Origin: Ceraceosorus guamensis
Taxonomy: Eukaryota; Basidiomycota; Exobasidiomycetes; Ceraceosorales; Ceraceosoraceae
Assembly (NCBI RefSeq): GCF_003144195.1
Contig: NW_020290047.1
Span: 78,916-142,915 of the forward strand
Length of the DNA: 64,000 nt
Direction of reading: 5' to 3'
Position numbers and translations under genes: made by a program. Each line of letters opens with the position of its first letter. Position 1 is the first letter of the stretch. Shown piece by piece: positions 13,537 through 18,279 of the stretch. The notes beneath the pieces were generated by a model. The model was not told where the DNA came from and did not search any database. It was given only the letters and a program-made list of their open reading frames with translations.

Positions 13537-14311
13537 TCACATTGTGAATGTCTGCCTACCTGCCCAAAGCGCCGCATTTCCCTACGCTTCCAGACTTCCC
13601 CCCTCCTGTCAGACATCCCCCACCACACACACACACACGTTTGCTAGAAGTGGCTGTGATCACGCTAACGAGAAATGATCTCATGCGCCACGCTCCGGGC
13701 ACTACCGAGCGGCAAGTCAGGAGCCCATGCATGCACCCATGCTGCTGAGCTTTTACCACTCAGACTATCGTGTCAAAAGCTCGGGCGTAGCAGTCGTGCG
13801 CGACAGTGGGCCATCTGCACGACTCGGCGTGCTGCGCATTCGTGGCTTGGGTTTTACTGCGCGCTCCACTGTGACTCGTGACTATATATGCTGAGCATGC
13901 GAACAGAGATGATGGCATCATGCGAGGTAAATTCTCAAGCCAAATGACTCAATTTCATCGATCGAATTGCTTTGTACATTTGACATTCTAGACACTCTCA
14001 TCGCCTGCCCTTCACAGCCCTTATATAACAGCCCTCGTTCCATTTTGACTTCCTTCGAGACCCTCAATCTTGACCTTTGATTCGTGATTTTGTGGACTCA
14101 GTAAACGGGCGCAACGATGATAAAGAGTGGCTGTGCAAGGCCGTCACGGCCAAAGAGGGAAACCAAGAAGATCAAGAAATTTCGTTCTGTCGGCTGAAGT
14201 CGTGACGCGATTCGGAGCGGACAGAGGCGCAAGTCGAGTGCCAGGACCGATTGCCTCCATCTGAAAGCCACGCGTGCGACCTTGTGGGCAAATCAATGGA
14301 TAACGCGAGTT
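13537..14311. other. Intergenic, 775 bases
   Basis: Lies between the 5' end of the zinc-ribbon gene and the 3' end of the bZIP gene, both on the minus strand. It carries one ATTCGTGATT word at 14080-14089 and a TATATAA-like stretch at about 14023-14029. No gene is supported. Confidence 0.4.
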
Positions 14312-17300
14312 TCAAGCGTGATGCACAGATCTGGCACCAGCGAGCAATTGCTCCACAATCGCCGCGCTTGAGCGCAAATCCTTCGGCCCGGTGAGACCCA
14401 GCTCCAAGGCAAAGAAATCCTGCTGGACCAGGTCGCCGTTCTGCGTGCGAGGGCTGCCAGTGGCGCCAAGTAGCCGGAAGGCAGTACGAGCTGCTTTGAC
14501 GAAGCTTAAGGACTTGGAGGAGTTACGTGCTTTGCTCGGTGCTGACTTGGAAATAGACCCGCCGGACGCGCTGGCTCGCCACTGCTGCTGAGCACGTTGA
14601 CTAGCTGTGCGTGGTGCGGGAATGAACAGCGTCACCCGTCTCGACGCGGACGAAGAAGGCTTGACATCGCTTGCGGCCTCGCGCACAGGCGTGGCCGGAG
14701 CTGGCGAGCTCTTGGCGGACTGCTCTGACTCTTTTTCGACGTCGACGTCGAGATAGGCCCGTTCCACGTCAAGCCCGCTGCGCCCCAAGTGCTCACCCAG
14801 AGCGTGCATGCTCATCGAGTCGTTTGGTGCGTTGTCGCGCACCCATCTCAAGTCAAGCGGAAGATCGAGCAAGCGCTCCAATTCTGCGCTGCTTTGGCTC
14901 TGAGATGCCTTTGCGCTGCTCTTGTCCTCAGCGGCGTGCCCGCTGTCTGCTTCTTGATCATCCTTCTCTTCGTCTTTGCGCTTTGGAAGCACGCAGTGCA
15001 CCAGTGGCGCTCCGGCAGAATCTATCTGCTGGCCAAGGTTGAAGCTGGAAGAAGGCGATGGACTCAGTTGAGCGGCTTCTATCAGACTAGTCCAGTACCA
15101 ACAAACTCACAAATTGTCGCCGCACGCATGTGCAGACCCGTCTCCTGGAGCTGAGGTAGCTCCAAACAACGCGAAACTGAACAGCATGACCATCAAGGCA
15201 ACGCCTCCTGTTGTCTTGCGAGGAGTGTATTGGCCGGCAGATCCTGACTTGACAGCAGGGGCCCGCACTGGCTTTGGGTGTGACTTGTGCGCGATCGTCG
15301 TTACCGAATCAGTGCCATCCATGGTTTCACGAGCATCCTGATAGTCTTCCGCGGCTTCCTGGCTGGCGGAAGCCGGCTCCCGGCTCACAAAAGCAGTCAA
15401 TGCCTCTTGGTCTTCCTGACCACATTCTGGCGGGGTCAGCGACTGGGTCGCCTGCTTGAGCTGATTGCAGGTAGCAGCTTCAGGTTCGACGACTAGCGTT
15501 CGGGCAGAGGCCAGCGTGTCGCTGTCAGTCACAGACGCTGGCGGCCCTGATCGAAAAGGACGCTCATCGCCTGCTTGTGCAGTAGAGCCACCGGTCTGAG
15601 GCCTGGGTGCAGCACTGCCCCCATTCAGCATGTTCATCGATGCAGGCCACTGCGACGCAGAGGCAGCCTCATCGAGGTTTGACGCTTCCATTTGCGAGCG
15701 CAGCGAGAATAATTCGTTTTGTGGCGCTTGATCTGAAGTCGCTGCGTTGGCTGTGTGGTTCGCCTCTCCACGGTCGCGTTTGACACCGCGTGTGCTAAAG
15801 CTTTCCGAAATTTCGCTGGCTTGATCAGAAAGAGGCGGCACAGAAGACCCTGCTGAGGGGTCTTCGGTAGGTGCGATGCTGGCTCCTTTGGCGTTGACCA
15901 CCAGTTCAAGAACTTCGCGAACGTCTGGTGTCTCTTCTCCCAGCAACATTGGCAACACTGTCTGTCCGAAAGCCGACCAGGGCATATCGGGACCAGCAGC
16001 GACCTCCCACAGACGCCAGACCAGTCGTGACATGCTTCGACAGCGGCTCTCGAGCTCCTCGAACTGCTCTCGCTTGCGCTGACGACTGAGGAAGGCGGCA
16101 GCGCGATTCTTGACCAGCCTCGCCTCGCGCTTTGTGAGCCCAGATGTGTCAGGATGGACGAACAGCGACGAGTGAGTGGCCGACGTGTCAATGACCGGGA
16201 AAGGCTGGCCACTTTCGGTGATCTGCGATGCGGAAGGAGGCTCCCTTTTCTTGGATGGTTTCGCAGGCGCTAGCTTGGCTTCTTCTGGCTGCTTGTCTGT
16301 GGCAAGCGATGGGTCCACTGCGGCAGGCTGAGCAGGCTGAGTAGGCAGAGCAGGCAGAGCAGGCAGAGCAGGCTGAGCAGGCAAAGCAGTGGCTTCACTT
16401 GTTTGCGCTTCACCATTGGGAGGATCCGTTTCAGCGGGGACATCGGCGCCGCTCGTGGGCAGAGGTGGAGATGCTCCCTTTTTGGTCTGCTTGCGCTTTG
16501 CGCCTCCGCCAGAACGTCGCTTGGAGTCACTGGAGCGATGCGCTACTTTCGAGCTTGCCGTGCTGGCACTACCGGTAGGACTACCGAGTCGGCGGCGCTT
16601 GTCTGACACAGGGCTCACGTTGCCTAGCATGCTAGCATGGGCAGATGAGCTAGGGCTTGATCGATCTTCAGAGAAGGGGCTTGGCATGTTCTCCAGCGTG
16701 AAGTCCATTGGGTGCTCGGAAGCTTCCATCTTGAAACCCACCGGCGCATTCGGCATCGTCAGCATCTCCTCTGCGCCATCCATGTCGCGGAAGGGTCCGG
16801 CTGGGTAGGCATCAACGTGCGAGAGCCGCATGGCAAAGTGGTCAGGGACAAAACGAGCATCGTGCTCCATACCTCCAAAGCCATCGGCAGGCCATGCGAC
16901 CGGCGACTGAATGCCAAAGCTTCGGAACGGTGGTTTATCGAAGGTGTACGAATGAGGGTTTGGCGATGGAAGGGCCAAGGACAGGGCAGCGCTCGGGCTC
17001 TGCACCATGCTCATGCCCGTGTCTGGACTCGTCTCGGGACCACTCTCGCCGAACTCGAATGAGAGGCTATGCAGAGAGGCGCTGTGAGAGCTAGGAGTGG
17101 AAATATGAGTTGGGAAGCAGACATCGGCGGTGCTCGGCGAAGCTGGCAAAAGAGCGGGGGAGCCAGTCATTCGTCCATTCGAGTGATGAGCACCAGACTG
17201 AAGATGGTTCGGCACCGCAGAGATGGCAAGTTGAGCAGGCTTGCTCTTCCGCTTGGCTTGAGTGCCGCTATCCGATCTTTTGTATTCGGACGGGGGCGTA

Positions 17301-17413
17301 ATTGTGTTCACATTCCCGTTGAGATCGGTCGCGTCGCTCTCCATCATCTGTTCGGTGTGTAGAAAGTCGTCCAGATCGCCAGTGTCGATGGATGCCATGT
17401 TGAGCAAGGACAT
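14312..17413 (-). CDS. Membrane-tethered bZIP transcription factor (ATF6/CREB3-like architecture)
   Basis: Two exons, 17413-15111 and 15044-14312, encode 1011 residues; the 66-base intron has GTGAGT and TTCTTCCAG ends. The bZIP domain is at about residues 428-470: basic region KREARLVKNRAAAFLSRQRK with the invariant Asn and Arg, then a short zipper with Leu-Met-Leu heptads (about three) broken by Gly-Pro. A stretch of about 18-20 hydrophobic residues at 738-757 (VALMVMLFSFALFG), preceded by Lys/Arg, is a likely transmembrane helix, leaving about 250 residues on its far side. DNA-binding domain first and a single membrane span later is the layout of ATF6, CREB3 and plant bZIP17/28, released by proteolysis under ER stress. 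A low-complexity Ala-Leu-Pro/Gln repeat lies at 16320-16385. Alternative: a Hac1/Cib1 relative, but the intron looks spliceosomal. An ATG at 17398 is a second possible start. Confidence 0.8.
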
Positions 17414-17872
17414 GACGAGGTTAACTTGGGTGTAGCGACTGAGAGGGGCTGACTGTTGGTTGGGGGACGAAGCGTTCAGAAGACCGCACGCTGCCAACCG
17501 TGGCGTTGGATGAATAACACAAGTCGTTCAAAACGTCAGGGCGTGAAGAATGTCATGCAGCTGGAGTTGCTGTGAAGAGGAAGGATGACGATGCCAACGG
17601 ATAAGAGTAGCAGAGCGAGAGAGGGTGACGTTGGTCGATGACGCCGCAACCACGCGGACACGAAGATAGGAAGTTGGAGGATCGAGGGCGGAGGATTGCT
17701 CGAGCTCGATACGAGCTGCGTGTCTGGCCGAGCAGACGGTAGCACTCGAGCTTTTAATCAAGCGACACACGGTCAATGAAAGGCGTTTGTCGCCGATAGG
17801 AAGGTGTCGAGGGAGTGGAAATACGCAACGGGGAGCCCAAAATGCCGGTTACTTAGTGACGGTGAAGGATCA

Positions 17873-17908
17873 AGTCGAGTCGAGTCGAGTCGAGTCGGGT
17901 CGGGTCAC
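17873..17908. repeat. (CGAGT)n pentanucleotide microsatellite
   Basis: A short tandem array of the unit CGAGT (four near-perfect copies followed by CGGGT variants) in the upstream region of the bZIP gene. Confidence 0.8.
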
Positions 17909-18279
17909 GACGAGTCGGAAACGAGACTGATACAGGTGCAAAGGTCGACGCGTCTATGATGACCAGTGATTGTCGTGGTCGAGAGTCAATGGTCAGCGCG
18001 AAATGAGATGAAGCAGGTCCAAGCGCCTCTTCCACGTGTGGCGCTTGGCAGAGGCGAGCGCCTGTGAGAGGAGAGGGGCGCGGGCGCCCGACTGTGTGCG
18101 CCCGCGCCCTTCGCAAAAGGAGGCCCGAGCGAGCGCGTGCGAGGGACAAGAAGATGCATGCCACTTGTCTGCACGCGGCACTGGACCTGTCATGCAGTCA
18201 TGCTTTGCGTGATTGCATGCTGCGGACGTACGGCAAGCTGGTGATGAAGCGCGGTGATGCGTACAGTACATCCTGCTAC

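Follow-up and report, generated by a model that had tools for sequence, protein, structure and literature searches.

The bZIP gene on the minus strand of this window (the whole stretch of DNA that was analysed, 64,000 nucleotides, to which all positions refer) raises the question of whether a fungus could keep a bZIP transcription factor in a membrane and free it by proteolysis, as is described for ATF6 in animals and bZIP28 in plants. A review of yeast species states that the unfolded protein response (UPR) of these organisms has no sensor other than Ire1 (PMC6116095), and Ire1-Cib1 alone is described in the text available from papers on smut fungi. A membrane-released fungal bZIP would bear on the evolution of ATF6-type signaling. 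In the openly licensed literature, no description of a fungal bZIP anchored in a membrane was seen, which is no proof of absence, and the strings NRAAAFLSR, KNRAAAFLS, and UMAG_03509 were not found in that literature either.

Gene model and DNA-binding half

The gene was modeled as two exons on the minus strand, 17413-15111 and 15044-14312, with a spliced product of 1011 aa. The features of the gene up to the linker behind the zipper are as follows.

15111..17413, minus strand: exon 1, codons 1-767 plus the first two bases of codon 768 (open frame, ATG, donor)
15045..15110, minus strand: intron of spliceosomal type, 66 nt (GTGAGT / CTCAAC / TTCTTCCAG, frame)
14312..15044, minus strand: exon 2, from the remainder of codon 768 through residue 1011 to the stop codon; tail predicted to be lumenal (frame, GC by codon position)
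16070..16132, minus strand: bZIP basic region, residues 428-448 (Pfam bZIP_1, genome search, 22/37 identity to BvbZIP21)
15992..16069, minus strand: short leucine zipper, residues 449-474, ended by P475 (sequence; modeled helix 428-472)
15878..15979, minus strand: short helices predicted at residues 479-492 and 496-512, behind the zipper (AlphaFold, pLDDT about 50-66)

The start ATG lies at 17413, the open frame runs past 15111, and the stop codon ends at 14312. Among the GT donors tried near the end of exon 1, the one at 15110 was alone in fitting the consensus. A CTCAAC branch-like site follows, and the TTCTTCCAG acceptor at 15045 keeps the frame, so that reading continues to the stop. With the intron retained, the protein would end at residue 768, just past the hydrophobic stretch described below. 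Similar intron signals could be recognized in the same genome's genes for Ire1 and signal peptide peptidase (SPP). By codon position, exon 1 has a GC content of 62/55/58 and exon 2 one of 64/51/65. An earlier description of this locus made from the letters alone (the sequence-only reading) had placed the gene limits at 14312 and 17413, which are identical to the ends of the derived model.

In the presumed 5' leader, ~140 nt before the ATG, there is a six-codon upstream open reading frame (MTFFTP, stop; 17536-17556, minus strand) that could dampen translation. An AGTCG pentamer is repeated in nine copies at 17873-17917, upstream of the gene. TGACG half-sites were considered as an upstream signal and set aside, with four in 400 bp and 3.8% of window segments reaching that count. 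Rfam gave four hits over 13900-18200, all far under their gathering scores. Nine of the 20 neighboring open frames had a Pfam match at E up to 0.001 (among them GH31, GPI2, PQ-loop, PH, RNase PH, and MutL_C, the last under its cut-off), and these matches suggested no functional link to the bZIP gene.

Pfam bZIP_1 matched residues 427-462 of the spliced protein (E 9.8e-6, 26.0 bits, slightly under the cut-off of 27.6), and the same place scored 32.7 bits, above the cut-off, in a six-frame search of the genome. Across the whole protein, Pfam at E up to 1 returned bZIP families only, and the SREBP domain DUF2014 was absent. The d positions of the zipper are L454, M461, and L468, followed by P475, which makes three heptads. 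AlphaFold was run on residues 419-767 from the single sequence; this weak model (mean pLDDT 50.2) contained one helix at 428-472 with block means of 65-88 pLDDT. A sequence search of the PDB with the bZIP stretch placed designed coiled coils on top and CREB next. The sequence-only reading had described both a basic region at about residues 428-448 and an unusually short zipper of about three heptads, and both descriptions hold. The residues DLDDFL, close to the N-terminus, resemble a short activation motif of acidic type. A 9-nt in-frame tandem repeat of 7.4 copies (16323-16389, minus strand) encodes a Pro/Ala/Leu-rich stretch in the linker just before the bZIP.

Affinity of the basic region and the Hac1/Cib1 question

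The basic region was compared with those printed for 47 sugar-beet bZIPs in a paper that counts 48 genes (PMC11319121). It scored 104 with BvbZIP21 and 75 with the second-best, BvbZIP7, against a median of 57, and 22 of the 37 aligned positions were identical to BvbZIP21. Reciprocally, among nine bZIPs of this genome, this gene scored 104 with BvbZIP21 and the next scored 58, where the values for L009, L010, and L015, which were cut by introns, and for L026, an approximate join, are lower bounds. Scores against approximate reference sequences were lower, at 76 for CREB, 75 for HacA, 72 for ATF6, 71 for yeast Hac1, and 66 for ATF2. The basic region of the 690-residue BvbZIP21 starts at 228 (PMC11319121), and Arabidopsis bZIP17 is listed with a bZIP at 226-287 and a span at 364-387 (PMC9237531). 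From its sequence and length, we infer that BvbZIP21, whose layout is close to that of Arabidopsis bZIP17, belongs to the bZIP17/28 group. The base-contact residues of the fungal protein are NxxAAxxSR, which we take to be the Hac1/CREB pattern, with NxxSAxxSR being that of bZIP17/28 and ATF6. One review unites ATF6 with HAC1 in a group that occurs in opisthokonts and is absent from plants (PMC6025073), and this grouping, as given there, sits awkwardly with a fungal domain that is nearest to a plant bZIP. A search for paralogues of the gene in its own genome returned none.

These base contacts bear on the leading rival explanation, which we judge unlikely: the gene would be the Hac1/Cib1/Hxl1 orthologue working under Ire1, and its hydrophobic stretch would carry the nascent chain and the mRNA to the ER and would not be a cleavable anchor. 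The nascent chain and mRNA of unspliced XBP1 are reportedly taken to the ER by a hydrophobic stretch. The contacts are of the Hac1/CREB pattern, and an Ire1 gene is present in the genome. HacA-type and T. reesei-type bZIP queries matched this gene alone in the genome, with weak E-values of 0.048 and 0.06, whereas the yeast Hac1 query found no match there. The score with BvbZIP21 (104) also exceeds those with HacA (75) and yeast Hac1 (71).

The intron can be read on both sides of this question. Its 66 nt are close to the 65 nt of the unconventional intron of U. maydis cib1, which is aligned among genes with a CNG'CNGN consensus (PMC8071499), and the unspliced frame stops just past the hydrophobic stretch; its borders, however, are spliceosomal. 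Of the 24 CNGCNGN sites in the gene, no two are separated by 60-70 nt, and no two fold into twin hairpins. This lack of Ire1-type twin loops argues against a Hac1/Cib1 identity. The sequence-only reading had set against its own proposal the prospect of a Hac1/Cib1 orthologue with an Ire1-type intron; the intron part was not borne out in this gene, and, as to the orthologue part, no separate Cib1 gene was identified among the nine bZIP loci found in the genome.

U. maydis Cib1 is UMAG_11782 (PMC4836707), whereas in an early survey the closest U. maydis gene to Hxl1 was UM03509 (PMC3154848). A convincing Ire1-type intron was absent from all nine bZIP loci found. L009, L010, and L015 were considered as Cib1 and rejected; each has a single loose hairpin pair ~2.5-3 kb past its bZIP, with spacings of 15, 22, and 79 nt, respectively. 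Folding of site pairs 50-80 nt apart gave no case with both loops open. A Yap-type bZIP locus, L013 (G000:C17:224400-232400, minus strand), carries a hairpin with a CCGCAGC loop and a GACT/AGTC stem ~1008 nt past the start of the bZIP match, and a partner loop was looked for there and not found. This hairpin is of the kind that Ire1 cuts, with CCGCAGC as in the XBP1 loop.

The hydrophobic segment, the tail, and candidate proteases

One further feature separates the bZIP half from the tail.

15149..15205, minus strand: hydrophobic helix, residues 737-755, predicted single span with the bZIP half cytosolic (hydropathy, insertion score, AlphaFold, comparison with the other bZIP frames)

The 19-residue Kyte-Doolittle mean of this segment was 1.90, a value reached by 1.2% of 2000 shuffles of the whole protein. 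The insertion score, calculated with approximate scale constants, was -0.60 at 734-753, which is modest next to -1.79 for glycophorin A on the same scale. The best segment elsewhere in the protein scored +4.25, and 0 of 100 shuffles scored as well as the segment. AlphaFold placed a helix at 735-751 within the stretch at about 51-65 pLDDT. The 25 residues before 737 hold five K/R and no D/E, and the 25 after 756 hold no K/R and three D/E. With basic residues on the bZIP side and acids on the tail side, the bZIP half is predicted to be cytosolic and the tail lumenal. The span has no lysine, and a Gly751-Ala752 pair lies at the lumenal end of the predicted helix. No similar hydrophobic segment was found in the open frames of eight other bZIP loci in the genome (highest hydropathy mean 1.01, best insertion score +2.25), a comparison of exon frames and not of whole proteins, made on a genome bZIP list that may be incomplete.

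The hydrophobic stretch is thus predicted to be a membrane-type helix. The sequence-only reading had expected a membrane helix at about 738-757, basic residues ahead of it, and about 250 residues after it (256 were counted past residue 755), and the ATF6/bZIP28-like order of bZIP, span, and tail that it proposed agrees with the sequence and the predictions. It had also named the lack of any predicted membrane helix as grounds against itself, and a helix is predicted.

An ordinary soluble nuclear bZIP, in which the stretch would be a buried or protein-binding helix, is in our view quite unlikely. The modest insertion score, the proportion of shuffles that reach the hydropathy value, the low pLDDT of the modeled helix, and a tail that lacks the signature of a lumenal domain (two Cys, two sequons, and an S1P motif at chance level) would fit such a protein. 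Against it stand the failure of any shuffle to reach the insertion score, the next segment being almost 5 units worse, and the charge asymmetry (5/0 vs. 0/3), with nothing like the segment in the eight other bZIP frames. The Arabidopsis members of the group that the basic region matches also carry a span in the same order, as listed in PMC9237531.

An even weaker rival, very improbable in our judgement, would have the membrane segment removed from the RNA by Ire1-type cuts on both sides, as in bZIP60, to give a soluble factor without proteolysis: of the 26 pairs of CNGCNGN sites past the zipper in the unspliced RNA, two would take out the helix while leaving a long frame (240 nt removed for a product of 953 aa, and 222 nt for one of 959 aa), and the second pair joins identical CTGCCGG sites. 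These sites are not placed in 7-nt hairpin loops, and of 362 random segments, 158 are likewise flanked by an in-frame pair and 14 by identical 7-mers. The CTGCCGG sites at 15240 and 15018 (15018-15243, minus strand) bracket the helix and the intron, and their flanks pair together in the predicted fold. This flanking pair is probably due to chance.

The tail after residue 755 is hydrophilic, has its two sequons at residues 842 and 942, and returned no Pfam match and no PDB sequence match. Its single-sequence AlphaFold model had a mean pLDDT of 39.9 and no confident fold. One S1P-like Rx[LIT][KL] motif occurs in it, at residue 904, 149 residues from the helix; this is at chance level, as 29.8% of shuffled tails have one. 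The lumenal tail of bZIP28 reportedly has disordered parts that are bound by BiP (PMC3935173), and a similar holding of the fungal tail would be an analogy only.

The genome was also searched for proteases that could release such a protein. The classical site-2 protease family PF02163 had no match, in a search whose 14 controls, all from prokaryotes, all matched. PF13398, of M50B type, matched two loci (L035 and L036; G000:C36 about 152917-154307 and G000:C63:62428-62646), and the protein on G000:C36 carries HEFGH and is a possible intramembrane metalloprotease. SPP was found in the same genome, and the rhomboid family had two matches, one of them weak. SPP, the rhomboid-family proteins, and the M50B-type metalloprotease are candidates for the releasing protease.

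The membrane-bound reading and its relation to known systems

We give about an even chance to the reading that the gene encodes a membrane-bound bZIP factor that proteolysis releases, which would give this fungus a pathway of the ATF6/bZIP28 kind. Under this reading, the protein would wait inactive in the membrane of the ER or of another secretory compartment, in type II orientation with its tail in the lumen. A stress perceived on the lumenal side or within the bilayer would lead to cleavage in or beside the helix, and a freed N-terminal fragment of about 735 residues and some 80 kDa would enter the nucleus and bind CRE/UPRE-like sites. The factor would then form an arm of ER or membrane stress signaling parallel to Ire1-Hac1/Cib1. 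Anchoring is predicted here, and we infer proteolytic release, the stress function, its trigger, and its targets.

The membrane-bound reading is favored because the segment goes beyond what composition gives, has a charge asymmetry and a predicted helix, and is absent from the eight other bZIP frames; because the basic region is nearest to BvbZIP21 and SPP, rhomboid, and M50B candidates are present; and because the Gly-Ala pair is also listed for bZIP17 and bZIP49 (PMC9237531). Counting against it are its basis in prediction from one genome, the modest insertion score, and the lack of lysine in the span. The missing PF02163 protease, the chance-level S1P motif, and a tail with neither match nor fold weigh on the same side, as do the NxxAAxxSR contacts and reciprocal queries partly shortened by introns. 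A broader proposal, that this is a second, Ire1-independent ER-to-nucleus arm with a DNA-binding domain that resembles plant bZIP17/28 more than animal ATF6, and an old eukaryotic trait, is tentative and falls a little short of even.

The literature is permissive of this reading. In one genetic background of Phaffia rhodozyma, DTT sensitivity rose more when the S2P Stp1 was lost than when Sre1 was lost; the authors describe their data as exploratory and bring up additional membrane-bound factors (PMC12732919). A screen for membrane-bound regulators, mainly of vertebrate proteins, includes a fungal NDT80-type candidate, and no fungal bZIP was seen in the available portion of that paper (PMC13294678). 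If the membrane-bound reading is true, some of the ER-stress control in fungi has escaped notice, in a kind of signaling not normally credited to fungi. The protein would then be a candidate for explaining the Sre1-independent effects of Stp1 loss described in Phaffia (PMC12732919). On the broader proposal, ATF6/bZIP28-type signaling would be an old eukaryotic trait kept in some fungi, and this protein might be the substrate other than Sre1 that is missing for fungal intramembrane proteases.

Compared with known systems, the protein shares a broadly similar basic region and the base-contact pattern with Hac1/HacA, U. maydis Cib1, and C. neoformans Hxl1, and Ire1 is in its genome. It differs from them in that the gene has no Ire1-type pair of splice sites and the protein is long and carries a membrane-type helix, a feature on which the text available for Cib1 and Hxl1 was silent. 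Sre1 is a bHLH protein and not a bZIP. Together with the S2P Stp1, it is an earlier fungal case of a transcription factor that is bound to a membrane and released by proteolysis (PMC12732919). The present protein differs from Sre1 in lacking DUF2014, which also had no match in the genome, in a search run without a working control. With animal ATF6/CREB3, it shares the layout and the predicted type II topology; its basic region is less close to theirs (72 for ATF6 vs. 104 for BvbZIP21), its lumenal tail is unrelated as far as seen, and cleavage in the fungus would be by analogy with theirs. From plant bZIP17, bZIP28, and bZIP49, it differs in its much longer N-terminal half and linker, its shorter zipper, two base-contact positions, and a tail that is similar to nothing found and has no RRIL-type S1P site near the membrane; the plant proteins are each listed with a lysine in the span, whereas the fungal span has none (PMC9237531). 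With these same plant proteins, it shares the order of bZIP, one span, and lumenal tail (PMC9237531), and its basic region is nearest to BvbZIP21, taken as a protein of that type.
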